Source of the DNA: Rubeoparvulum massiliense
GTDB taxonomy: Bacteria; Bacillota; Bacilli; Rubeoparvulales; Rubeoparvulaceae
Assembly: GCF_001049895.1 (NCBI RefSeq)
Contig: NZ_CVPE01000004.1
Location: 248,001 to 312,000, forward strand
Length of the DNA: 64,000 bases
Direction: 5' to 3'
In this document: piece after piece, positions 30,488 through 46,633 of the stretch
How the letters are laid out: each line of letters begins with the position of its first letter
How positions within the stretch are numbered: the stretch's first letter is position 1
Made by a program: the position numbers and the translations under genes
Notes under the pieces: model-generated
Seen by the model: only the letters and a program-made list of their open reading frames with translations
Told to the model about the DNA's origin: nothing
The model's database searches: none

Positions 30488-31144
30488 CTACGCTAAATTT
30501 TGTCTCAATTCCTTATAATCTTCTTCGATAAACGATGGGATAAACGCTGCAATCTGTTGGACGAAGGGATGGGATTCTGCTGCTAACAGCTTCTCACAAA
30601 ACCTGGGAAGCCATGATTGAAGATACTGTTCAATAAACCGGACTTCAATCTGATAAATTTGTCGTAGGTACTCCCTATCACCAGTTTCATATCCTTCTTC
30701 TTCTGAAGCGATTAAGGATTGAATAAAACGGAACTGCATACTAAGATGGTCAGGCTGCTCTCCTCTCTCTACCGGAAGATAGAACTTCATCTGCTCATAG
30801 AGTTCAAGGAGAGAAAGCAATTCCTGCTTCGTCACCTCGTGCAGACTCCCTTGGGAAACACCTTCCCTCTGTGCAGACTGACGTCGATGATAGGATGCAT
30901 AGGGAGGAATATAATATGGACCAGGTACCATAAAGCGTTGCTCAAAGATAAAGGGGACCTGTTCATCATCATATTTTGATGCTAGCGTCTTAAACCATTG
31001 GATTTCTTCAGCGACAACTGCCAATTCCCGCTCCCACTGCTTCCATTCTCCGAGAAATAGATGAGCGAACATTTGGTAGATTATCTGTCTCCCTCGATTC
31101 AATTCTTCAAGGGGAAATTGCACTTTATCTTCTGCAATTTTCAC
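30488..31144 (-). CDS. TorD-like chaperone of the ttr operon
   Basis: 218 residues, helical. It has the family block QRFMVPGPYYIPPYASYHRR (about 67-86) and MQFRFIQSLIASEEEG. It starts with GTG after GGAGGTGATGAGAG. It lies 29 bp downstream of ttrA and is the last gene of that operon, so TtrA is its likely client. The family helps fold and export molybdoenzymes. It is only moderately like the torD gene at 25407, which fits a separate client for each. Confidence 0.84.
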   Translation of the reverse strand: MKIAEDKVQFPLEELNRGRQIIYQMFAHLFLGEWKQWERELAVVAEEIQWFKTLASKYDDEQVPFIFEQRFMVPGPYYIPPYASYHRRQSAQREGVSQGSLHEVTKQELLSLLELYEQMKFYLPVERGEQPDHLSMQFRFIQSLIASEEEGYETGDREYLRQIYQIEVRFIEQYLQSWLPRFCEKLLAAESHPFVQQIAAFIPSFIEEDYKELRQNLA

Positions 31145-31173: not shown

Positions 31174-34100
31174 TTACGCCTTCGTAATCTCCACAAAGAG
31201 ATCCAATTGACCAGGGGCACCACCGATAAGATCCACGATGGTTCCATCTGTAAAGCTGGGATCAGGCATCAATAATTCATTAATGCGAAAGCCTGCTTCA
31301 CGACCTCCTGCGTACCCCGACTCCTCCTTCATTGGCTGATTCGTTCGGAATGGGATATGTCCATAGGTAGGCAATGACTTCATCTGCGCTCCGTCGATAC
31401 TAGGACGATTTACACCATAACCAGACTGTCCCATATTATAAGCGGATCCTACCACGCCTGGACGAATCCCTTCCGTGACAAGAATCGTTGCCAGAGCTGT
31501 ATGTCCATCAGCAATCACCTTTACCTGATCCCCCGTCTTTAGCTGGCGACTCTGAGCATCCAACGGATTGATCCAGAGATAATTATCTGCACGTACCTCC
31601 CGTAACCAGGCACTGCTTACAGTACGGGTAGTGCCCAAATTGCGTGACTTCCAATTGATAAATTGGAGAGGATATTTCGCTTGTACAGGATCGCCATTAT
31701 AGTATTGAATCTCTTCATGACGTGGGATCCCGTCGAAGAATTCTCCATGATAGCTATTACGCCCACCAGCTACACCCTCATCATAGAAATTGGCTTGCGC
31801 ATACAAGCCATATTTCACGTGTTCACCGCGGTACTCATCTCCTGAACCCTCAAAGCGGCCACCACGATTCAGAACAAAGAGCACCTTCCGCCATTCCTCT
31901 GGCTTTACCGCTTGCTGCCAACGCTCCACTACAAAATATTTACCTAAGGCTTTTTGCCGCGCTTTGATAAAGATCTCTACCTCTTGATCACTGGCATCGG
32001 GTACCGGTGTTTCATCAAAGGCAATATTGGCCACACGTTTTAAATAGTAATCTAACTCCTCATGGAGCGGACTACCATCAGGGAAGGCTTGCTCACCAAC
32101 ACCAGGCCACTTCATCCGTTTGCCAAGCTCAATCAAGACATTCTCAAAGGATAACACATCTGGATAGACGCGAGTAACTGGCTGAAAGACGCTGGCAAAC
32201 TTGGTTTTGATATTGGGATAAATAGCCTCCCATCCCCACCGCTCCAGGTAAGTCGTATCCGGTAAAATAAAGTCTGCATATTGCGAGGTATCACCAATCT
32301 GCACATCGGATGCCACTACCAAGGGTAGGATGGCTGGATCAGCGAGATATTTCGCTTGATTACGACCCAGTGGTGAAGATAAGACCGGTGACATCCGATG
32401 AATGAAGAGCGCCTTCAAGCCATAGGGATATCCCTCTGCAATGGATGGTAAAACCTCATAGACCGTATGCGCACCAAATTGGAACCAGGGGCGACGAGCA
32501 GGATAGCCATCGCGCTCAAACAGGGTGCTCTTCTCATATTTCGAGAGATAACGAGCCACATTGAGACCCCAGCCTGTGTTCGCATTGGGAACGCTTAGAA
32601 GATCATAACGTCCTTCTACCTCTTTATAGAAAGCGCCTGTAGTGATGTTGCCACCCTTCCAATCATAATTACCCAGTAGGTGATTGAGAATAGCGATGGC
32701 CCTTGAGGCATAATATCCGTTCCCATGCATAGCTGGCCCACGGTAGACCATGGTAGCTGCTCGTTTCCCATGGGAGGTGAACTCCTCCGCTAAGCGGATA
32801 ATCGTCTCTACATCAATGCCTGTAATGTCAGCATACTCTTCGAGCGTTTTCTCCATGACCCGTTCCTTATAGAGGGTAAAGGCAGATTTCACATGAATCT
32901 CCCCGATAATGGTATCTACCTCTAGCGTCCCTTCTTGAGCAAGATCATGGGGAACAGGTTGGCCATTCTCCAATACCACATACTGCTTATCAGTACCGAT
33001 ACCAAGATCACTGGCTCGTAGCTTGGGACGATTGGGCTTACTCACGTCTACTAAGAAGGTAGCATCGCTCCAGGTTGGCTCTCCATCTAGCTCTGCCGCT
33101 GCTTTGTTGGGATTGAGGAGATAGGTTAGATCATAGCGTTGATTCTCCACAATCCAGCGTCCCATGGCCAGCGCTAATGCTCCGTCCGTACCTGGTTTGA
33201 TCGGTACCCAATGGTCGGCTTTTTCTGCAGTCTTACTCATCCTTGGCTCAATCACCGCCATCTTCATTCCACGCTGTAATGCATTGGTAATCTGTGGTGC
33301 CAACCATGTGGGTCCTTTATTGGCGACCAATGGATTGGTGCCCCAGACGATCATGAATTGAATATGATCCAGATCAACATACTGTCGTTTTTTCTTCTTC
33401 TTCCCTTCATAGGAGCGCTGATTCCCCATGACACTGCTCATTCCACAGATTCCACCATGGTGAAAATAATTGGCGGTCCCCATGCTGTTCAGAAAGCGTT
33501 CAATAAAATCACGACGGTCCCCTGCCATAATCCCTATTTGATTGGACTTGGGGCCAAAATCAGGATGCTTCGTGTCAATTAACAGATCCTTATATTTCTG
33601 GTCAAAGGCTTCAAAGCTCATCTCACCAGCTTTTACCTTCGTCCAATCGTCCATCACTGGCTTTTCTGGTACATAAGCCCATATCTCCTTCAAGCCTGGT
33701 GTTCCTAATTCCGGATCGCCTTCAATGATCGCTTGATAGGCTTCTTCCCAGCTGATGGTCTTCCATTCACCGCTCCCCCGTTTTCCTACCCGCTTGAGCG
33801 GCTTTTTTACACGATAGGTATCATAGGCGATCTGAATTCCAGCTTGGCCCTTTAAGCAGGTACGACCTCCCCGTAAGCCATGGCTATCTCGGGCTACATC
33901 GCCTAATCCCTTCACCCCTTCATCCATGGGTGTTTCATAGGGGATGGGTCCGTAAGGCACGGTAGTAATAGGACTATACTGATTGCCTGAGATTTTTCGA
34001 ATCAAGGAGGTGTAAGGACCACTCTCTCCACCAGAGACAATATGAGTCTTAATGGTACAGTGGGTATTACATTGCTCACAGGTGGTGAAGATGACATCCT

Positions 34101-34269
34101 CTGCGGTATAATCCTGCGTAGCTGCTCCTACACCATGGGGAAGATCTCCCCAGACACCATTGATGGTTTGCTTAACAGGTCCCACAAATGCAGGGGCCAC
34201 CACGGCCACACCACCAATGGCACCTAATCCCTTTAAGAATCGGCGACGACTGATCCCCTTATTCTCCAT
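31174..34269 (-). CDS. ttrA: TtrA-type molybdopterin reductase (tetrathionate-like), Tat-exported
   Basis: About 1031 residues, close to the roughly 1020 of known TtrA. The Tat signal is ISRRRFLKGLGAIGG. The cluster motif is C64-x2-C67-x3-C71 with C138 far downstream, the long spacing seen in TtrA. A likely molybdenum ligand is C275 in HHGGICGMSS. The ATG at 34269 was chosen over the longer frame because GGAGGG stands 7 bp upstream. It overlaps the end of ttrC by 11 bp. Gene order B-C-A equals Salmonella ttrBCA. The same family also includes selenate and arsenate reductases of Gram-positives, so the substrate is likely but not proven to be tetrathionate. Confidence 0.72.
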   Translation of the reverse strand: MENKGISRRRFLKGLGAIGGVAVVAPAFVGPVKQTINGVWGDLPHGVGAATQDYTAEDVIFTTCEQCNTHCTIKTHIVSGGESGPYTSLIRKISGNQYSPITTVPYGPIPYETPMDEGVKGLGDVARDSHGLRGGRTCLKGQAGIQIAYDTYRVKKPLKRVGKRGSGEWKTISWEEAYQAIIEGDPELGTPGLKEIWAYVPEKPVMDDWTKVKAGEMSFEAFDQKYKDLLIDTKHPDFGPKSNQIGIMAGDRRDFIERFLNSMGTANYFHHGGICGMSSVMGNQRSYEGKKKKKRQYVDLDHIQFMIVWGTNPLVANKGPTWLAPQITNALQRGMKMAVIEPRMSKTAEKADHWVPIKPGTDGALALAMGRWIVENQRYDLTYLLNPNKAAAELDGEPTWSDATFLVDVSKPNRPKLRASDLGIGTDKQYVVLENGQPVPHDLAQEGTLEVDTIIGEIHVKSAFTLYKERVMEKTLEEYADITGIDVETIIRLAEEFTSHGKRAATMVYRGPAMHGNGYYASRAIAILNHLLGNYDWKGGNITTGAFYKEVEGRYDLLSVPNANTGWGLNVARYLSKYEKSTLFERDGYPARRPWFQFGAHTVYEVLPSIAEGYPYGLKALFIHRMSPVLSSPLGRNQAKYLADPAILPLVVASDVQIGDTSQYADFILPDTTYLERWGWEAIYPNIKTKFASVFQPVTRVYPDVLSFENVLIELGKRMKWPGVGEQAFPDGSPLHEELDYYLKRVANIAFDETPVPDASDQEVEIFIKARQKALGKYFVVERWQQAVKPEEWRKVLFVLNRGGRFEGSGDEYRGEHVKYGLYAQANFYDEGVAGGRNSYHGEFFDGIPRHEEIQYYNGDPVQAKYPLQFINWKSRNLGTTRTVSSAWLREVRADNYLWINPLDAQSRQLKTGDQVKVIADGHTALATILVTEGIRPGVVGSAYNMGQSGYGVNRPSIDGAQMKSLPTYGHIPFRTNQPMKEESGYAGGREAGFRINELLMPDPSFTDGTIVDLIGGAPGQLDLFVEITKA

Positions 34270-35533
34270 GCTGTAACCCTCCATTCTGTAGATTCTCATC
34301 ATCGATTGGTAAGATTTTTTCTCCGAAGGTATAGAGAAGTAAGCCAAAGGCGATGATCCCTATGGTGCTCATCCATTCGCTTAGAGTTGGATAATAATAC
34401 CCTGCAGGCAAGCCATCAAAGAGTGGAACGATGAGCGCAGGTACAACAATGTTAAAGCGTACCCCGATAATCCCAATTACAATGAGTATGGCTGCTGCTA
34501 ACATGGCATTCACCGATGTACGCGTTCGCCTCCAGAAGAAGAGAACGATGGGAATAAGTGAGCCTAAGAAGAGTTGAACTCCCCAGAATGACCAGGAGAA
34601 TGGACTAGCCATGGTAGTTCGTAAGGTGGCAAGATGCTCATGCTCTAAGCCATAGAAACCAACGAGATATTCAAAGAATTGTAGACCTAGGTCCACGATG
34701 AGGAAGGCGATCATCAAGGCAGAGAGCTTCTGCACCATCTTCTGATCGATGGACTTCCGTTGCGCTTTGCGCTTAATAATATACATGGCAAGCAAGAGTG
34801 CTGTTCCCGAGACCATGGCCGAGACAACGAAAATGATGGGGAACAATGCGGTATTCCAACCTACTCTGGCCTTCACCACCGCAAATAATGTCCCTGTTCC
34901 ACCATGTACTCCGAAGATAGCGAGTGGAATACCGATCATCCCCAAAATTTTCATCCAGAGATGGTCGCGTTTCTGGGTATAGGCTGAGATGACACTCTTT
35001 TTACTGGTGAGGAGACGGGCGATTTTCCCTTTAATCGTCTCTGATGTACGTAGTCTCACTAGGTCCTCACGCATGGCGATATAGAGCTCTACCGAGAGCA
35101 AAAGGACATAGACAATATAGAAGTGAACCTCCCAGGAAAGAATACTGGTTACATTCCAAAAGATGATTGCATTTAGTACTCGTTCAGGACGACCGAGATC
35201 CACGAAAACGAAGGTGCCTGCTACCACCATACAGATGATGGCTGTGAATAAGGCAGCCTTACCCACCTTCTCAAATTCTCTCATGTTAAACACATAGATA
35301 AGTGAAGAGAGTAGAAAAGAGCCAGCACTGAGCCCTACAAAGAAAATATAGAATGCGATCCACGCTCCCCATGGCATGGAACTGGTTAGATTGGTCACCT
35401 CTAAGCCACGAATGAGACGTTCTGCGATAAAATAGCCACCTGCAAGAAATAATAGGCTTAACGTGATGATCCACCCATTGAAGTTGGTCTGCTTCGATTT
35501 AATCAGCCGTTGACCTTGTAAAATCTCCTCCAT
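34259..35533 (-). CDS. ttrC: NrfD/PsrC-type membrane subunit (TtrC-like)
   Basis: 424 residues, with about nine to ten membrane helices. Segments like MPWGAWIAFYIFFVGLSAGS and FVDLGRPERVL are typical of NrfD/PsrC quinol-binding anchors. It takes electrons from menaquinol and passes them to TtrB. It lies 11 bp after ttrB, and its last codons overlap ttrA, indicating translational coupling. GGGGGGAG precedes the ATG. Confidence 0.85.
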   Translation of the reverse strand: MEEILQGQRLIKSKQTNFNGWIITLSLLFLAGGYFIAERLIRGLEVTNLTSSMPWGAWIAFYIFFVGLSAGSFLLSSLIYVFNMREFEKVGKAALFTAIICMVVAGTFVFVDLGRPERVLNAIIFWNVTSILSWEVHFYIVYVLLLSVELYIAMREDLVRLRTSETIKGKIARLLTSKKSVISAYTQKRDHLWMKILGMIGIPLAIFGVHGGTGTLFAVVKARVGWNTALFPIIFVVSAMVSGTALLLAMYIIKRKAQRKSIDQKMVQKLSALMIAFLIVDLGLQFFEYLVGFYGLEHEHLATLRTTMASPFSWSFWGVQLFLGSLIPIVLFFWRRTRTSVNAMLAAAILIVIGIIGVRFNIVVPALIVPLFDGLPAGYYYPTLSEWMSTIGIIAFGLLLYTFGEKILPIDDENLQNGGLQHGE

Positions 35534-35544
35534 GGTTCTCCCCC

Positions 35545-36192
35545 CTATTTTAGATAGATGACACTTGGCTGTGTCCCTAACTCTTCCTTCAAGCGAAATG
35601 CTCGTGGACTCGCAGCGAGCTTTGAAACAATGCTCTCCGGGTCATTGATATCCCCAAAGTAACGAGCATCCCCGATACAGGTCTCCACACAGGCTGGCTC
35701 CTCACCGCGTTCTAAGCGATGAAAGCAGAAATTACATTTTCGTACGGTACCAATGGGTGCCTTACCAGCCTTCCGTTCACCACGATCCTTTCCATACTCT
35801 GGACTGGTAATCTGATTGTAGCCAAGCATCTCATCTTCGTAGCTTTCGCCGAAGTCGAAGGATCTGGCTCCATAAGGACAAGCAACAATGCAATAGCGGC
35901 AGCCAATACAACGATCATTATCGATGGTGACGATTCCATTCTCCATTTTGTAGGTAGCTCGTGTTGGACAAACCTGAACGCATGCTGGCTTATCGCACTG
36001 CATGCAGGGACGAGGAATATTGACCCGTTTCACATTAGGAAATACACCTCGTTCCTCCTCCATGACAATGTTGTACGAAATACCTGGTGGTGTACGATTC
36101 TCCGCCTTACAAGAAACAGTACACGTATCACAACCTACACATTTCTGCAGATCGATGACCATAACCCATTTGGGACTCTGCTGTTTCGACAT
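35545..36192 (-). CDS. ttrB: Four-cluster ferredoxin subunit (TtrB-like)
   Basis: About 215 residues with four 4Fe-4S motifs: [35 protein letters not shown] and [20 protein letters not shown]. The ATG at 36192 has AGGAGGGG 6 bp upstream; a TTG two codons earlier is less likely. No signal peptide, so it is probably exported with TtrA. It is the first gene of the ttr operon and has a sigma-54 promoter upstream. Confidence 0.85.
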
Positions 36193-36300
36193 TGACAACC
36201 CCTCCTATCTGTTCATCTTCCCCACTTATTTGTGACGTTTTTGTGTCTTTTTTCACATTTTCTCGCTGAGAAATTAGGTGTTCCCTCACTATAAGAACAT

Positions 36301-36316
36301 TGCAAAGATCATGCCA
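36301..36316 (-). promoter_or_regulatory. Sigma-54 promoter (-24/-12) of the ttr operon
   Basis: On the minus strand TGGCAT-GATCT-TTGCA (36316-36301) matches TGGCAY-N5-TTGCA exactly, including the GG and GC 10 bp apart. Transcription should begin near 36289, about 95 bp before ttrB. The adjacent activator has the GAFTGA motif needed for sigma-54. Confidence 0.85.
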
Positions 36317-36364
36317 ACATTTTGGTCCCCATTTTCCTCGTTTTCGCGCCATGATCAAAAAAAA

Positions 36365-36395
36365 GAGTATGACAAAATGTCATACTCCCTGCCAA
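36365..36395 (-). terminator. Terminator of the sensor operon and possible activator site
   Basis: A perfect 10-bp stem GAGTATGACA / TGTCATACTC; on the minus strand T8 follows. It ends the sensor operon. The palindrome ATGACAAAATGTCAT also lies about 50-70 bp upstream of the -24 element, where an enhancer site of the activator would be placed. Confidence 0.8.
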
Positions 36396-36404
36396 ACTGT
36401 CAGA

Positions 36405-37760
36405 TCAGAATGAACTCCTTGATAGATCTTTTGGCTCCAAGCCATACTCTTCGATCTTTCGATAGAGATTCCGTACACTTATCTCTAATAGGGCAGCTGC
36501 CTTCGTCTTATTCCAATGACAGAAGTTCAGAACCTCTAGAATATGCTGCCGCTCCATCTCCTTCAGCGGTGTTAATGTTTTGCTAAAGAGTTCAGATGCT
36601 TGAGGAAAACCAAGATGCTCTGTCTCAATAAACCGTCCGGGACAGAGGATGATGCCCCGCTCAATCATATGCGAGAGCTCCCGTACATTACCAGGAAAGT
36701 CATAATGGAGTAAAGCTTGCTCTGCTTCCTTGCTTAGCTCCTTCTCCTCTTGGAACTGTATGCTTTTCTTCTGTAGGAAGTAATTACTTAGCGGTAAAAT
36801 ATCCTCTCTCCGTTCCCGAAGTGGTGGAATTCGCAGTTCGATTACATTCAGACGATAATAGAGATCGGCACGAAATTGACCTGCAGCGATCTTATCCTCC
36901 AGATTGGCATTGGTGGCTGCAATCACACGGACATCCACTTTCTTAATCCGTGTTCCACCCACAGGACGAAACTCCCCTGATTCAAGAAAGCGGAGTAATT
37001 TTACCTGTAATGCATAAGGCATATCCCCGATCTCATCCAATAGTAGCGTACCCTGATCCACGATCTCCACCAAGCCATGCTTCTCCTGGCTAGCCCCAGT
37101 GAAGGCTCCCTTGACATGGCCGAATAACTCACTCTCCAGTAATTGCTCAGGAAGGGCCCCCATATTGATGGGCATAAATGGTTGCGCCTCCCGATTACTA
37201 TGCTGATAGATATATTGAGCAATTAACTCTTTCCCTGTTCCACTTTCGCCGGTGATCAGAACAGGACTATTGGTGATAGCCACACGCTCCGCCTTCACTA
37301 ATAGTGATTTCATCTGTGGAGAGACGGCAATCAACGAGGTATCTGGTTGACGCTCGCGGAGGACAGCCTTGAGATGAAGATTTTCCCGATAAAGATGATA
37401 CTTCTCAGCAGCCTTACTTAATAGCACCTCTAATTCCTGTACTTGAATGGGTTTCGTAACATAATCATATGCACCTTTCTTCATGGCTTCGATGGCTGTC
37501 TCAATGGTTCCATGCCCTGTAATCATGATCACCTGTGTACCACTCTTCAGCTTCTCCACCTCTTCCAGAAGGGTGAGTCCATCCATTTGTGGCATTCTTA
37601 TGTCGCTCAAGACAACAGCAAACTCCCGCTCTGCCAAAAGAGCCAAGGCTTCCACACCATTTGCTGCAGTAAAGCATTGATAGTTTTTGCGCTGAAGACG
37701 TTGCGCGAGCATGGTTCTAAATTCTTCCTCATCATCAACGATCAAGATGGGTACCTGCAT
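36405..37760 (-). CDS. NtrC-family sigma-54 activator / response regulator
   Basis: About 451 residues in the full three-domain form. The receiver domain has D53 in VVLSDIRMPQMDG as phosphorylation site. The AAA+ domain has Walker A GESGTGKE (171-178) and the sigma-54 contact loop GAFTGA (218-223). The Fis-type HTH is KTKAAALLEISVRNLYRKIEEYG. It is the last gene of an operon with a kinase and binding protein and overlaps the kinase by 26 bp. The sigma-54 promoter before ttrB is the obvious target. The ATG at 37760 was chosen over one seven codons earlier for its AAGG site. Confidence 0.92.
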   Translation of the reverse strand: MQVPILIVDDEEEFRTMLAQRLQRKNYQCFTAANGVEALALLAEREFAVVLSDIRMPQMDGLTLLEEVEKLKSGTQVIMITGHGTIETAIEAMKKGAYDYVTKPIQVQELEVLLSKAAEKYHLYRENLHLKAVLRERQPDTSLIAVSPQMKSLLVKAERVAITNSPVLITGESGTGKELIAQYIYQHSNREAQPFMPINMGALPEQLLESELFGHVKGAFTGASQEKHGLVEIVDQGTLLLDEIGDMPYALQVKLLRFLESGEFRPVGGTRIKKVDVRVIAATNANLEDKIAAGQFRADLYYRLNVIELRIPPLRERREDILPLSNYFLQKKSIQFQEEKELSKEAEQALLHYDFPGNVRELSHMIERGIILCPGRFIETEHLGFPQASELFSKTLTPLKEMERQHILEVLNFCHWNKTKAAALLEISVRNLYRKIEEYGLEPKDLSRSSF

Positions 37761-39966
37761 CCAAACCTTCACTCCCTTCATCCTCTACACGTGGAAAAAG
37801 TAGGCTCACCGTGGTTCCTACATTGGGTTCACTCTGAACCTGTATGCTTCCACCCATTCGCTCCATAATTCCATAAGCAATATACATCCCAAGGCCAGTC
37901 CCTTCTCCCACTGGCTTTGTTGAATAGAATGGATCAAAGAGATAGGGGAGATCTTCCTCCGAAATTCCACAGCCATTATCTTGGATGTTAACTGCTAGCC
38001 ATTCTGGTGTTCGTGAAGAACTAATCACAATACAGCCCCCTACGGGAACTGCATCGATGGCATTGCTAATCAAATTGTGCAGAACCTGTTGAACCTCACT
38101 TCTGCTCGCTTCGAGGAGCTCATTGCCCTCCAGCTCCACAGACAGTTCAAGCTCCTTCTTTTTCATGGTATATCGCAAAAGCAAGAGCACATCATGAAGG
38201 GTATCCGTTAGTGAAAAGATCTCCTTCCCTTCATTATTCTTGCGCGAGAATTGCAGGAGATTATCGGTAATATTCTTGCAGCGATCAATCTGTTTCCTCA
38301 TCGTTTGGAGATAATGAAAAAGCTCTCCTTCTCGCTTCAGTACAGCCACATCCTCTTCCTGAATACGATCCAGTAAATCATCGGTATATAAAGCCAAGGT
38401 ATTTAAAGGATTATTAATCTCATGAGCCACACCAGAGGAGAGAAGTCCAACGGCAGATAGCTTGTCCGCTTGTCGCACCATCATCTCCATCTCCTTCTTG
38501 TTGGTAACGTCCTCCAATACTTCAAGGACAGGGACACGGTCAGCCGTCTGCGTAGATGATCCACCCTCTAATTGAAAGAGACGATGAGAGATGATACGTT
38601 TGCGTCCATGAATGATTTGCACCGATGTAATCTCCTCTTCCTTACCATCCTGCTGTAGTGAGCCCTGAAAGGGATAGATATGACAGATATCACGGATAGG
38701 ACAATTCATCCCCAGTCCTTGATGACAGGGCTGCCCAACCAGCTGAGTCGCTACTCCAAACCAACGTTCGATGGTCTTGTTCACCCAGATGATGTTTCGA
38801 TCCTCGTCGAAGAGAATTAGACCCATTCCTAAACCGCTTACCACTTGATCTAAGCGTTTCTTCTCTGCTTGAAGTGATTCGTTCTGCTTTCGGAGCTGAG
38901 CGGTCATCTGATTAAAGGACTCCACCAATCTGCCAATCTCGTCACGTTGTTCAATCTCTTCGATTTGATAGGTGTAATCGCCTGCCCGTACCCGTTGAAC
39001 CCCTTTTTCTAGCACCTCGATGGGTCGTGAAAAGCGATTCGCAAAGAAAAAGCTTAATGCAGCAACGAAAAAAGCGATTAAGACCGCCGACGATGTCAGG
39101 CTAAATTGTAGTCGCTCCACAGCCTCCATCTCTGCTGCTCTTGAATGCTCTACTACTACGATCCAATTGAGGTGGGGAATCTCGCGATAATAGGCCAGCT
39201 GTTCCTTACCATTTGTCGAATAGAGAGCCTTAAACATATCAGTACCTGCGATGGGTTCTGCCTTCTCTAACCAGTTGGCATACTGATTTTCCGTTGTCAC
39301 CTTCTCATATAAGAAACGCGTTTGATCACTATGAGCAAGCAACTTGCCATTGCCATCGAGCAGGTAGACAGAAGAATTGACCCCTGGTACGGGAACGGAG
39401 ATGGTATTCAATAGTTGGCGAATATTTATATTGATATCAATGGCAGCAACCACGGTTTGATCCGCTGCAAAGAGTGGTATGGCCATAGAAAAGAGGGGCT
39501 TCTGATATGGATTGATATAGACATCACCGTAGTAGATAGATCCTGCGACGAGCTGTTGCCACGCATCTGTTGTTAAGGGAGCGAAGTGCTCCAGTGTAGC
39601 TACTACATCCCAACGATCTACCGTTGCCTTAGCAAATCCCTGATCATTCAAATACGTGATCCGCTCAATCTGGGGAATCTGCGTCATGATAAAGGCGAGC
39701 CAATCCTCCTCCTGCCAGGTGGAGTACGGATGACTTCGGGTGATGGAAACAAGCTGGTCCATCATGCGTTCTAGCTCTAATTGAAGTTCTTGTGTAGCAC
39801 GCTCTAAACGGAGCTGATTCTTCTCGTCAATCTCTAGAATCAACTGCTCTTTACTCGAATTCGCGTTCCAGATTCCTAACAAGAGGAAGGGAACAATAGA
39901 CATGATGAGACCGAAAAGTAGGACACGAAAGCGAATCTTTTTCCACCAATAGGCTGGTCCCTTCAC
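37735..39966 (-). CDS. Sensor histidine kinase with dCache-like extracellular domain, HAMP and PAS
   Basis: 743 residues. Membrane helix about 13-33, an extracellular dCache-type domain about 34-285, second helix about 288-310, HAMP about 311-365, PAS about 375-485, then the kinase core. The phospho-accepting histidine is H515 in SSGVAHEINNPLN, and the ATPase domain has DNGCGI and GEGTGLGMYI. The PAS domain carries three cysteines (C414, C422, C428), a pattern that recalls redox-sensing PAS domains. It starts with GTG, directly after the stop of the binding-protein gene. It likely phosphorylates the NtrC-type regulator. The signal could be a sulfur oxyanion. Confidence 0.9.
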   Translation of the reverse strand: MKGPAYWWKKIRFRVLLFGLIMSIVPFLLLGIWNANSSKEQLILEIDEKNQLRLERATQELQLELERMMDQLVSITRSHPYSTWQEEDWLAFIMTQIPQIERITYLNDQGFAKATVDRWDVVATLEHFAPLTTDAWQQLVAGSIYYGDVYINPYQKPLFSMAIPLFAADQTVVAAIDININIRQLLNTISVPVPGVNSSVYLLDGNGKLLAHSDQTRFLYEKVTTENQYANWLEKAEPIAGTDMFKALYSTNGKEQLAYYREIPHLNWIVVVEHSRAAEMEAVERLQFSLTSSAVLIAFFVAALSFFFANRFSRPIEVLEKGVQRVRAGDYTYQIEEIEQRDEIGRLVESFNQMTAQLRKQNESLQAEKKRLDQVVSGLGMGLILFDEDRNIIWVNKTIERWFGVATQLVGQPCHQGLGMNCPIRDICHIYPFQGSLQQDGKEEEITSVQIIHGRKRIISHRLFQLEGGSSTQTADRVPVLEVLEDVTNKKEMEMMVRQADKLSAVGLLSSGVAHEINNPLNTLALYTDDLLDRIQEEDVAVLKREGELFHYLQTMRKQIDRCKNITDNLLQFSRKNNEGKEIFSLTDTLHDVLLLLRYTMKKKELELSVELEGNELLEASRSEVQQVLHNLISNAIDAVPVGGCIVISSSRTPEWLAVNIQDNGCGISEEDLPYLFDPFYSTKPVGEGTGLGMYIAYGIMERMGGSIQVQSEPNVGTTVSLLFPRVEDEGSEGLDAGTHLDR

Positions 39967-42277: not shown

Positions 42278-43417
42278 ATGAGTAAAAGAATTGTTGTCTT
42301 AGGCGGTGGCTCTGGTGGTACTATGGTGGCCAACCGACTAGCACGTGAATTAGATCAACAGATTCGTGCAGGCGAAGTAGAACTACTTCAAATCGCCAAT
42401 ATGGAAAAGCATATCTATCAACCTGGTTATATCTTCATTACATTTAATGAACGTAAGCCAGAACACTTCGTTCGGCAACAAAAGCGTCTTGTCCATCGCA
42501 ATATCAAACTAGTGTTTGATAATATCACGAAGATTGATCCAGAGAAGAGCCTACTTATCTCTGCCGAGCATGAATATACCTATGATTATTTAGTCATCTC
42601 TACCGGTTCAGTACCCAACTTTAACAGTGTGCCTGGTCTTGCCAAAGCATCTCATAACTTCTACACCATGGATGGTGCTATTCGCTTACGTGACGCCTTA
42701 GATAAATTTGAAAAAGGGAAGGTTCTCATCACGGTGGATGTACCCCATAAATGTCCAGCTGCACCTGTGGAAATCACCTTGATGCTGGAAGATTATTTCC
42801 GTAAGAAAGGGATTCGTGAACAGGTTGAAATCGAATATGCTTATCCTGTAGAACGAGTCCATCTCCTTCCAACCACAGCAGTATGGATTCAAGATCAATT
42901 TGATAAGCGCGATATCCATTATGTCACCTCATTTAAGATGGCAAAAGTGGATCCAGACAAACAGATTGTTCATGGTAAGGATGGAAGCGAGCATCCTTAT
43001 GACCTACTCATCTCCATCCCCTCCCATACAGGTGCTCAAGTGATCCTTGATTCTAAACTAGGTGATAATAATGGCTTTATTCCTACGGATCGCTATACGT
43101 TAAAAATGGAAGGCTATGATAATGTGTATGTGGTTGGTGACGCAACCAATCTACCAATTAGTAAAGCAGGATCCACTGCCCACTATGAGAGTGAAACTGT
43201 TGTACCTAACATCGTTAGTCGGATCGAAGGACGGCCTGAATCGAAACGCTATAATGGAAAAGTAGCTTGCTTCTTAGAAAGTGGCATGGATGCTTCAAGT
43301 ATCATCAATTTTGACTATAATAATCCACCCTATCCGCTACCACCCTCTGAATTACTGCACTGGTTTAAAGCAGTCTATAATGAGGTGTATTGGTTAAATG
43401 CACGAGGGATCATGTAA
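42278..43417 (+). CDS. sqr: Sulfide:quinone oxidoreductase-type flavoprotein, copy 1
   Basis: 379 residues. FAD-binding motif VVLGGGSGGTMVANRLAR (about 6-23), second dinucleotide block YLVISTGSVPNF, and the C-terminal FAD block NVYVVGDATNLPISKAG. Two cysteines only, C159 (PHKCPAAP) and C331 (KVACFLESG), at the sites of the SQR redox pair. It oxidises sulfide to sulfane sulfur and passes electrons to quinone. GAGGGGGG precedes the ATG. It is followed by a DUF1641 gene at 13 bp and has a close paralogue at 44917. Confidence 0.88.
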   Translation: MSKRIVVLGGGSGGTMVANRLARELDQQIRAGEVELLQIANMEKHIYQPGYIFITFNERKPEHFVRQQKRLVHRNIKLVFDNITKIDPEKSLLISAEHEYTYDYLVISTGSVPNFNSVPGLAKASHNFYTMDGAIRLRDALDKFEKGKVLITVDVPHKCPAAPVEITLMLEDYFRKKGIREQVEIEYAYPVERVHLLPTTAVWIQDQFDKRDIHYVTSFKMAKVDPDKQIVHGKDGSEHPYDLLISIPSHTGAQVILDSKLGDNNGFIPTDRYTLKMEGYDNVYVVGDATNLPISKAGSTAHYESETVVPNIVSRIEGRPESKRYNGKVACFLESGMDASSIINFDYNNPPYPLPPSELLHWFKAVYNEVYWLNARGIM

Positions 43418-43430
43418 GGAGGTGGAGGAC

Positions 43431-43997
43431 ATGACCACAACAACTCCACAAGGAAATACTGCCACTCAAATGGAGAAGCTAAAAGACTTTACCGGTGCAG
43501 CCATGCAAGGACTGACCACAGATATGGTAAGTGAGCTTGCTGCAAAAGGCGTACGTGCTGTTGAGCTTCTTGATGAAATCGCACAGCCTGAAGTACTTGA
43601 TCTGATGCGTAAATTGCCAGAGATGACCGCTAGCCTAGAACGAAGCATGGAGCTCATCCAACGCGTTGAATCCAATGGTACTTTACATACCTTAATCGAG
43701 CTAGGCGAAATGGTAGGAACCATGCGTGCTTCCATGACTGCTCCCATGGTTACCGATCTCGTGGAAAAAGGTGTGAAAGGTATTGAGATGGCTGATGAGA
43801 TGTCACAGCAGCTCATACCATTACTAGAGCCCATGAATGACGCACTGCTAAAAACAGCTGGCGAATCAGTGAAACATCAGGCCCCCAGTAAAATGCAATT
43901 ATTACGTGCCATCTCTGATCCAGATGTACGGATTGGACTCAATTTTCTCCTTACCTTTACGAAGAACCTGGGCGAAGCATTGCGTACATCGAAGTAG
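43431..43997 (+). CDS. DUF1641 protein paired with SQR, copy 1
   Basis: About 188 residues. It has the DUF1641 repeat-like helices (LDEIAQPEVLDLMRKLPEMTASL and LIELGEMVGTMRASMTAPMVTDLVEKGVKG). The ATG at 43431 has GGAGGTGGAGG upstream. DUF1641 proteins often sit beside quinone-linked flavoproteins (B. subtilis YjlC next to Ndh), so it may place SQR on the membrane. The function is not known. Confidence 0.82.
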   Translation: MTTTTPQGNTATQMEKLKDFTGAAMQGLTTDMVSELAAKGVRAVELLDEIAQPEVLDLMRKLPEMTASLERSMELIQRVESNGTLHTLIELGEMVGTMRASMTAPMVTDLVEKGVKGIEMADEMSQQLIPLLEPMNDALLKTAGESVKHQAPSKMQLLRAISDPDVRIGLNFLLTFTKNLGEALRTSK

Positions 43998-44004
43998 ACA
44001 TAAT

Positions 44005-44045
44005 AAATAGCCGAACTTCCTTGTGGGAGTTCGGCTATTTTTGTT
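44005..44045 (+). terminator. Terminator after the first sqr pair
   Basis: A 16-bp stem (AAATAGCCGAACTTCC / GGGAGTTCGGCTATTT, one G-T pair) followed by TTGTT. It splits the cluster into two transcripts. Confidence 0.85.
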
Positions 44046-44210
44046 ATATTCACACGTTAGCGACAGAAGTCTAGTACATACCCCCACCAGTATACAAATT
44101 CTCCTCACTTCCGCCACCATTCATCCACAGATTTACCCTACCCCGTATGGTATTCTTAACTCAGAAGGGATCCCTCAAACAAGTACACGATGCTAAAGGA
44201 GGAACAATTC

Positions 44211-44612
44211 ATGTCAGAACAAGCTCCAGCAATGGCGATTATCTTAATGTCAGGTGATTTGGAAAAATTGCACGCAGGTGCACTCGTTGGTTCTGTTGCA
44301 GCCATGTCAGGAATGAAAGTTAGCATCTTTGTAACGATGAATGCCCTTGAAGCTTTCCTTAAAGAGAATGTAGAACAGCAAAACTTTACCGTAGGTACGG
44401 TAGGTACTGCTTTATTAGAAAAGAAGGTTCCTCTCTTTTATGACCTCCTTCGTGAAGGGAAAGAGATTGGCGACCTTAAGGTATATGGCTGCGCCATGGC
44501 CATGGATGTGAAAGAGTGGAAAAAAGAGGATATGGTTGACCTCTTTGACGATATCATCGGTGTGACAGCATTCCTTGGTTTAGCCCAAAACGCCCAAGTT
44601 GTTACGATGTAA
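44211..44612 (+). CDS. DsrE-family sulfur carrier protein
   Basis: About 133 residues of the DsrE/DsrEFH-like family. The block LHAGALVGSVAAMSGMKVSIFVTMNAL and the conserved Cys in LKVYGCAMAMD (about residue 100) are typical. It probably accepts persulfide sulfur and hands it to TusA. The ATG at 44211 has AAAGGAGG upstream. It is the first gene of the second transcript (dsrE-tusA-sqr2-DUF1641). Confidence 0.85.
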   Translation: MSEQAPAMAIILMSGDLEKLHAGALVGSVAAMSGMKVSIFVTMNALEAFLKENVEQQNFTVGTVGTALLEKKVPLFYDLLREGKEIGDLKVYGCAMAMDVKEWKKEDMVDLFDDIIGVTAFLGLAQNAQVVTM

Positions 44613-44634
44613 ATTGATGAAGGGGGAAATTAAA

Positions 44635-44874
44635 ATGGCACAAGTTGAAGTTCAAAAAAGTATTGATGCACGTGGTTCATTCTGTCCTGGTCCTCTCATG
44701 GAATTGATTAAAGCTGTTAAAAAAGCCAATGTAGGCGATATAATTGAAGTCCTCTCCAATGATAATGGCTCCGCAGTGGATATTCCTGAATGGGTCAGCA
44801 AAATGGGGCATGAATTAGTTTATAGTGAACCAGATGGTGACCATTATAAGATTGCCGTTCGTAAGCTTCATTAA
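44635..44874 (+). CDS. tusA: TusA-family sulfurtransferase
   Basis: 79 residues. The TusA signature is ARGSFCPGPLMELIKA with the persulfide Cys C17. It takes part in sulfur trafficking; here it sits between dsrE and sqr2, so it likely handles sulfane sulfur made by SQR. The ATG at 44635 has AAGGGGG upstream, and the gap from dsrE is 22 bp. Confidence 0.92.
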   Translation: MAQVEVQKSIDARGSFCPGPLMELIKAVKKANVGDIIEVLSNDNGSAVDIPEWVSKMGHELVYSEPDGDHYKIAVRKLH

Positions 44875-44916
44875 TTACTTCACGGTATATGGGATAGATA
44901 AAGGGAGGTTATACGA

Positions 44917-46056
44917 ATGCCAAAACGTGTAGTAGTCTTAGGTGGTGGTTCTGGTGGAACCATCGTTGCCAATCGTCTCGCTCGTCAATTAGATCAGCAG
45001 GTACGTGATGGTGACGTTGAGATCATTCAAATTGCCAATACAGAGAAACATATCTATCAACCAGGCTATCTATTTATCACCTTTAATGAACGGCAACCTG
45101 AACACTTTATTCGTAAGCAAGATCAGTTGGTTCACCGCAATGTAAAACTCATCTACGACAATGTGATGAAGATTGAACCAGAAAAAAATCTGCTGATTTC
45201 TAAGAAGAATCAATATCCTTACGATTATTTAGTCATCGCAACTGGTTCTGTACCGAACTTTGATAGCATTCCTGGCTTAGCGGAAGCCGCTTATGATTTC
45301 TATACGCTCGAGGGCTCCATCCGTCTCCGTGATGCCTTAGCCAAGATGGAAAAGGGTAAGATTCTTCTCACCATTGATGTTCCACATAAATGTCCTGCTG
45401 CACCCCTAGAAATCACCTTGATGCTCGATGACTACTTCCGTAAGCGTGGCATTCGGGATCAAATTGAATTGGTCTACACTTATCCCATTGGTCGTATTCA
45501 CTCGCTGCAGCCTATTGCTGACTGGGCAACGCCACAGTTTGAAAAGCGGAATATTCAATACGAAACCTTCTTCAATCTTGAACGCGTAGATCCTGAGAAA
45601 AAAGTTGCGATTACCATGGATGGTGATGAACATCATTACGACTTGCTCATCTCCGTACCAGCTCACCAAGGTGCACCTGTAATTATCAACTCCAAGCTTG
45701 GAGATGAGGATGGCTTTATTCCTACAGACCGCTACACCTTGAAGATGGAAGGCTCTAATAATATCTATGTGGTAGGTGATGCAACCAATCTACCAATCAG
45801 TAAGGCTGGCTCTACTGCTCACTATGAAAGTGAAGTGGTTGTTCCTAATATCGTTAGCAGCATCCTGGGTATCCCAGAAACCAAACGCTATAACGGGAAA
45901 GTAGCATGTTTCCTAGAAAACAGTCTAGAAGATGCGAGTATGATTACATTCGATTATAATCATCCTCCCCAACCAGCTCCCACCTCAGAGCTACTACACT
46001 GGTTTAAAGCAGTATATAACGAAGTGTACTGGCTAAATGCCCGAGGAATTCTGTAA
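44917..46056 (+). CDS. sqr: Sulfide:quinone oxidoreductase-type flavoprotein, copy 2
   Basis: 379 residues, the same length as copy 1 and closely similar along the whole sequence. It keeps both cysteines C159 and C331, the FAD motif VVLGGGSGGTIVANRLAR and the C-terminal block NIYVVGDATNLPISKAG. Main differences are in the middle lobe (about 185-240). A separate ribosome site GGGAGG precedes the ATG. It follows tusA at 42 bp and precedes its own DUF1641 gene at 13 bp, exactly as copy 1 does. Confidence 0.88.
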   Translation: MPKRVVVLGGGSGGTIVANRLARQLDQQVRDGDVEIIQIANTEKHIYQPGYLFITFNERQPEHFIRKQDQLVHRNVKLIYDNVMKIEPEKNLLISKKNQYPYDYLVIATGSVPNFDSIPGLAEAAYDFYTLEGSIRLRDALAKMEKGKILLTIDVPHKCPAAPLEITLMLDDYFRKRGIRDQIELVYTYPIGRIHSLQPIADWATPQFEKRNIQYETFFNLERVDPEKKVAITMDGDEHHYDLLISVPAHQGAPVIINSKLGDEDGFIPTDRYTLKMEGSNNIYVVGDATNLPISKAGSTAHYESEVVVPNIVSSILGIPETKRYNGKVACFLENSLEDASMITFDYNHPPQPAPTSELLHWFKAVYNEVYWLNARGIL

Positions 46057-46069
46057 GGAGGTACTTGGC

Positions 46070-46633
46070 ATGGCAAATCAAATCGAAGAGTCCAACCAGG
46101 CAGCTATGGAAAAATTAAAGGATTTCACAGGCGCCGCCATGCAAGGTCTCACAACAGATATGGTGAGTGACATGGCAGGGAAAGCTGTGAAGATGCTAGA
46201 GCTTCTTGATGAAGTAGCACAACCAGAAACCCTTGGAATGATGCGAAAATTACCTGAGATGAGCACAAGTCTCCAACGTAGCTTGGAGTTAATTCAACGG
46301 GTAGAATCCAACGGTACGCTACGTACCTTGATCGAATTGAGTGAAATGATCGGAACCATGAAGGCTTCCATGACAGGCCCGATGGTGACTGATATGGTAG
46401 AAAAAGGTGTAAAAGGATTGGAGATGGCTGATGAGATGTCACAAAAGCTCTCCCCTCTCCTTCAGCCGATGAATGAAGCATTGACCTTAACGGCTCAAGA
46501 ATCCCTCAATCAACAGCCGCCTAGCAAGATGCAATTGTTACGCTCATTCTCTGATCCCGATGTACGTGCTGGTCTTCAATTTCTGCTTACCTTTACAAAA
46601 AACCTTGGACATGCATTACAAACAACTCGCTAA
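46070..46633 (+). CDS. DUF1641 protein paired with SQR, copy 2
   Basis: About 187 residues and similar end to end to copy 1 (KLKDFTGAAMQGLTTDMVS, LRTLIELSEMIGTMKASMTGPM). The ATG at 46070 has AAGGAGG upstream. The 13-bp gap from sqr2 matches the first pair, so the unit sqr-DUF1641 was duplicated together. A strong terminator follows. Confidence 0.82.
   Translation: MANQIEESNQAAMEKLKDFTGAAMQGLTTDMVSDMAGKAVKMLELLDEVAQPETLGMMRKLPEMSTSLQRSLELIQRVESNGTLRTLIELSEMIGTMKASMTGPMVTDMVEKGVKGLEMADEMSQKLSPLLQPMNEALTLTAQESLNQQPPSKMQLLRSFSDPDVRAGLQFLLTFTKNLGHALQTTR

Follow-up and report, generated by a model that had tools for sequence, protein, structure and literature searches.

A predicted sigma-54 enhancer within the terminator hairpin upstream of an SrdBCA-type reductase operon in Rubeoparvulum massiliense

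The reductase locus and its regulatory genes

The window, i.e., the whole 64 kb stretch of Rubeoparvulum massiliense DNA analyzed here, carries on its minus strand, in this order, genes for a binding protein, a kinase and a regulator, a terminator hairpin, a sigma-54 element, the reductase genes B, C and A, and a gene for a TorD chaperone. The first gene encodes, according to Pfam, an extracytoplasmic substrate-binding protein (PF04392; 39967–40959), which is kept beside the kinase in nearly all relatives and is probably the ligand sensor of a three-component system. It is followed by a dCache-HAMP-PAS sensor histidine kinase, likewise assigned by Pfam (37735–39966), and by an NtrC-type response regulator (36405–37781), the presumed activator, in which Pfam recognizes a receiver domain, an AAA domain (PF00158 at 2.4e-69) and a Fis HTH. 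The GAFTGA motif that had been claimed for this neighboring protein is indeed seen in its translation and, with the AAA domain, marks it as an activator.

The reductase operon itself, from the B gene to the TorD chaperone gene, spans 36198–30488 on the minus strand. It encodes an SrdB-type iron-sulfur subunit as its first gene product (35545–36198, with an alternative start possible at ATG 36192), an SrdC-type NrfD membrane subunit (34259–35533, assigned by Pfam and by comparison with relatives), an SrdA-type molybdopterin catalytic subunit with a Tat signal and the Mo-ligand Cys301 (31174–34347), and a TorD-like chaperone (30488–31144, from profile and Pfam matches). In the Bacillaceae srd loci (L072–L110), SrdB possesses an N-terminal extension of about 80 residues that is missing in the window, whose A subunit matches its counterpart in L222 at 70%. 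The leader of the operon (36229–36268) contains TTGTGTCTTTTTTCACAT, which bears a loose likeness to a Rex or CRP/FNR-type palindrome. In addition, sulfur transfer genes adjoin the operon: a duplicated module of a type III sulfide:quinone reductase-like and a DUF1641-like protein occupies 42278–46633, with DsrE-like and TusA proteins encoded between its two copies.

The best matches of the B subunit lie in Bacillaceae and include Mesobacillus (Bacillus) selenatarsenatis SF-1 (82%), whose SrdBCA was reportedly described as a respiratory selenate reductase by Kuroda et al. in 2011. The selenate reductase SrdBCA belongs to this strain (PMC4319585), and from the organism together with the B-C-A gene order it follows that the SF-1 locus compared here is the published srdBCA operon. 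In published trees, TtrA, SrdA and an archaeal arsenate reductase share one clade, which holds tetrathionate and arsenate reductases too (PMC10100899, PMC7331816). The TtrA equivalog score was 466 bits for the window protein and 488 for the SF-1 A protein, against a cut-off of 1750, and the locus has an NtrC-type regulator rather than a TtrR-type one acting beside a -35 box. Since the operon is close kin of the SF-1 operon, with the same B-C-A order, and the TtrA scores fall far below the cut-off, it is named SrdBCA-type here. By sequence relationship we place it within the TtrA/SrdA clade, with selenate as a possible substrate. The "tetrathionate-type reductase" of the original prediction consequently holds at the level of the clade, but not in the sense of TtrBCA.

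The genome encodes a second TtrA/SrdA-like molybdopterin subunit, 33–36% identical (C5:107463–110549; L161:3964–7050, minus strand). At the precise codon for the Mo-ligand cysteine (Cys301 in the window protein), its gene reads TGA in frame (HGFSUGG), and SelB (C6:408097) and tRNA-Sec (C6:414170) are present in the genome. It appears that this subunit contains selenocysteine, although only Cys is tabulated in the literature for its clade. The second reductase comes with its own sigma-54 activator gene, and a one-mismatch -24/-12 site is situated between the two, right after a T tract (C5:110768–111833, L161).

The sigma-54 promoter and the predicted activator sites

The -24/-12 element of the reductase operon, TTGGCATGATCTTTGCA (36301–36317, minus strand), lies about 100 bp upstream of the B gene. 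Its GG and GC are 10 bases apart (GG-N10-GC), as the fixed spacing of a sigma-54 promoter demands, it agrees with 13 of the 14 consensus positions, and it is the only site with at least 12 matches in the 64 kb window. The promoter proposed before "ttrB" is thus present, but calling it perfect was slightly too strong, as it reads TGGCAT in place of TGGCAC. Exact matches to TGGCAYRNNNNTTGCW occur seven times in the 2.84 Mb genome, the reductase-operon promoter included, and three of these (this promoter, C5:442 kb and C6:638 kb) are found directly behind an activator gene. The genome also encodes RpoN (C5:134585) and five full sigma-54 activators. In the promoters of the relatives (n = 55, a few duplicate loci included), the GG, A and GC positions are invariant, of which the search had prescribed GG and GC but left A free.

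Two predicted activator (enhancer) sites were located upstream of this promoter. Site 1, TGACAAAATGTCA (36370–36382), is situated inside the terminator stem and is the only exact match in the genome; an identical 13-mer precedes the corresponding promoter in L103, L108, L073, L240, L244 and L246. Site 2, TGCCAAACTGTCA (36390–36402), is a degenerate second copy that was absent from the original prediction and lies 20 bp from site 1, just past the stop codon of the activator gene. TGNCANNNTGNCA has no further match in the window, and nowhere else in the genome do two such matches fall within 30 bp. Measured from the first base of the -24 box, the centers of the two sites lie 59 and 79 bp further upstream, at approximately -86 and -106 relative to the expected start. 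With a weight matrix built from the relatives, the window left out, site 1 ranked first in the 64 kb (23.6) and site 2 second (14.2), followed by a match of 7.7. The best scores of 20 random windows ranged from 7.8 to 22.5; site 1 exceeds all 20 of them, and the score of site 2 alone could be due to chance, since random windows reach 22.5. Tandem copies 20–34 bp apart are present in most relatives, and the comparison supports a tandem of two predicted sites as the enhancer.

No long perfect palindrome was found in the 420 bp examined for each of the C5/C6 activator/promoter pairs and for the activator beside the second MopB reductase. A cluster of TGACA-N3-TGTCA sequences at C6:583–584 kb was considered as a further regulon and rejected, owing to its position around a TetR gene and an ABC transporter. 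This region (C6:583304–584162, L062), beside a CRISPR locus, contains three such palindromes, which are probably TetR operators that resemble the activator motif.

Across the relatives, the motif is concentrated in front of the srd promoter. In the 260 bp before the sigma-54 element, a region set by the position of the promoter and not by the motif, 53 copies of TGNCANNNTGNCA were counted in 28 relatives (7.3 per kb), although many of these 28 loci are closely related and their copies are not independent. Elsewhere in the loci of the same relatives, only 12 copies occur in 427 kb (0.028 per kb). Furthermore, the regulator orthologue (cut-off E ≤ 1e-80 in the genomes), the sigma-54 element and the sites are all missing together in L086, L088, L090, L091, L095, L099 and L102. 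L075 and L107 keep the motif and the promoter; both genomes encode the regulator, which the first test did not place next to srdB, although in L075 it is located upstream, separated by a short gap. L093 and L096 encode a 42–43% identical regulator-like protein, which we read as a paralogue, and have no sites. The recognition helix of the orthologues ends in a near-invariant SVRNLYRK. Sigma-54 control by the adjacent activator, as originally proposed, is supported by these relatives, in that genomes without the activator are also without the motif and the promoter.

The terminator hairpin and its overlap with site 1

Directly behind the regulator gene, AGGGAGTATGACATTTTGTCATACTC followed by T8 forms the hairpin of a predicted intrinsic terminator of the activator operon that is built on site 1 (36362–36390, minus strand; T tract at 36361–36354). 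It has a stem of 13 pairs, a folding energy of -15.3 kcal/mol (z -5.1) and begins 15 bp after the stop codon. Further regulator loci were sought in 800 more genomes of the class and phylum, and a site with at least 7 of the 8 defined positions inside a terminator-like hairpin was uniformly classified as fused; variant sites with 7/8 positions occur in L222, L224 and L260. By this rule, sites occur inside 12 of the 51 terminator-like hairpins that lie within 330 bp ahead of the promoter, versus 4 of 357 elsewhere.

The sites form the terminator in the window, in its nearest relative, in Carboxydothermus and in others, and they do so by two constructions. A single site makes up the whole hairpin in the window, L222, L227 and L239, and two sites are paired as the arms of the stem in L103, L240, L241, L242, L244, L246 and L224. 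When the fused label was placed on the regulator tree, six changes were needed, five of which are forced by well supported branches. A terminator that is also a predicted enhancer looks to have arisen repeatedly, and such dual use, which the original prediction considered unusual, is not a single oddity. As several lineages show the same overlap, a genuine design that has come about repeatedly seems more plausible than an accidental palindrome. The proximal site is mostly 100–190 bp from the promoter in the separate Bacillaceae cases versus 50–75 bp in most fused ones, from which we infer that the fused layout is a compaction of the more common order sites-terminator-promoter.

It is conceivable, if improbable, that the palindrome serves as the enhancer only and that no termination takes place in the cell, so that transcription of the regulator gene continues into the reductase operon. 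Palindromic operators form RNA hairpins by themselves, and as a palindromic operator followed by T's automatically yields a terminator-like hairpin, part of the observed overlap may be a by-product. Moreover, no terminator was found in the hairpin scan for some relatives (L251, L257). Against this explanation stand the T tract and the presence of another terminator at the same place in most unfused relatives. In addition, the flanks that lengthen the stem are complementary and vary in sequence from relative to relative (GAGTA/TACTC, CCCC/GGGG, ATCCA/TGGAT, AACCA/TGGTT). In the six two-site hairpins, the stem is paired in 98.8% of cells, and three outer stem pairs beyond the protein cores show changes in both partners. 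Whereas pairing within the cores follows from their palindromic sequence, selection on the RNA is evidenced by the changing outer pairs, albeit in a small sample.

The reverse explanation, in which the palindrome is a terminator only, the activator binds elsewhere and the enhancer match is coincidental, agrees with the strong hairpin and the T8 that follows it, but we regard it as very improbable. The identical 13-mer precedes the same promoter in relatives with a different terminator hairpin, a second copy stands in tandem, and the motif is missing together with the activator. The comparison of relatives with different terminators, which the original prediction had called for, showed that the palindrome is kept there: the sites lie outside the terminator in L083, L089, L108, L072, L100, L104 and others, where a different hairpin between the sites and the promoter forms the terminator. 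As the sites are kept outside terminators in most relatives, the motif is conserved without a terminator function. The idea of a terminator palindrome that doubles as an enhancer is thus supported, with a motif that tracks the activator and stems that covary outside the cores. Finally, a sigma-A promoter (TTGGCA-18-TATAGT), which overlaps the -24/-12 element and, at 10/12, is the best match of the sigma-A scan, could drive the operon with the regulator as a classical activator, but this is extremely unlikely, since such sites are no more frequent than by chance (16 observed versus 14.5 expected) and just 8 of the 55 relatives match its -10 with a score of at least 5/6, whereas the -24/-12 element is kept.

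Proposed mechanism, signal and comparison with known systems

Taken from the DNA and its relatives, the most probable reading, which we hold with considerable confidence, is that the NtrC-type regulator acts via two sites to drive the sigma-54 srd promoter and that the proximal site doubles as the terminator. The binding protein and the dCache kinase would sense an oxyanion, presumably tetrathionate, thiosulfate or selenate, and the kinase would then phosphorylate the regulator. Dimers of the regulator may bind the two tandem TGNCAAAATGNCA-type sites, which have a spacing of 20 bp and precede the start by about 85 and 105 bp; the bound regulator would activate the sigma-54 promoter of the SrdBCA-type operon by looping. 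The proximal site, being the terminator stem, would also end the message of the binding protein, kinase and regulator. Activator transcription would hence stop inside its own enhancer instead of running through the sigma-54 promoter. That the fusion is itself regulatory, either because the bound activator alters the termination of its own operon (roadblock or read-through) or because incoming transcription clears the enhancer, seems rather unlikely. If true, the synthesis of the activator and the occupancy of its enhancer would be linked by an inbuilt feedback, a solution at which evolution has arrived several times.

In a search of open-access papers, which covers little of the subscription literature, neither sigma-54 control of srdBCA nor a terminator doubling as a sigma-54 enhancer was encountered. 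The locus is an experimentally accessible example of a single palindrome that is both predicted protein-binding DNA and predicted terminator RNA, an arrangement that has evolved repeatedly. It also allows a likely regulator, binding motif and promoter to be named for SrdBCA-type selenate/tetrathionate respiration, and for TsdA, across Bacillota.

With regard to the signal, the next gene after the regulator relatives in other families encodes a TsdA-type dihaem cytochrome (L224, L226, L227, L229, L231, L235 and L236), that of L226 matching a solved thiosulfate dehydrogenase at E 1.9e-52. In L224–L236, the binding motif and the sigma-54 promoter recur together with this three-component family, whose genes precede those of the cytochromes. 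A TsdA search of the R. massiliense genome gave no match, and its control likewise gave none, so that this negative carries little weight. In Vibrio parahaemolyticus, tetrathionate acts through TtrRS on ttrBCA and tsdBA jointly (PMC11293645), so that tsdBA belongs to the TtrRS regulon just as tsdA adjoins the sister regulators of the window. Given these sister regulators and the Vibrio parallel, tetrathionate or thiosulfate, besides selenate, is a likely signal by analogy.

The TtrRS-TtrBCA systems of Salmonella and V. parahaemolyticus resemble the window in that a two-component system controls a molybdoenzyme of the TtrA/SrdA clade whose genes are ordered BCA. However, TtrR binds GTGG-N4-CCAC directly before the -35 box (PMC11293645), whereas the window has an NtrC-type regulator, to which TtrRS is unrelated, with tandem distant sites and a sigma-54 promoter. 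Sigma-54 two-component control of thiosulfate/tetrathionate genes is described for TspSR and TcsSR of Acidithiobacillus, where TspR acts from the palindromic site TGTCCCAAATGGGACA (PMC6335251). Unlike the window, these systems are proteobacterial and serve oxidation pathways, and the parts of that report available to us do not mention a terminator fusion. Another close known counterpart is the SF-1 locus, which has the same gene order B-C-A plus TorD, 82, 69 and 58% identity in B, C and A, respectively, and the same set of binding protein, kinase, regulator and sigma-54 promoter with two sites. In contrast to the window, an unrelated gene and tatA, the latter directly before srdB, lie between its regulator and srdB, the two sites are 34 bp apart, and a separate terminator is situated between the sites and the promoter.
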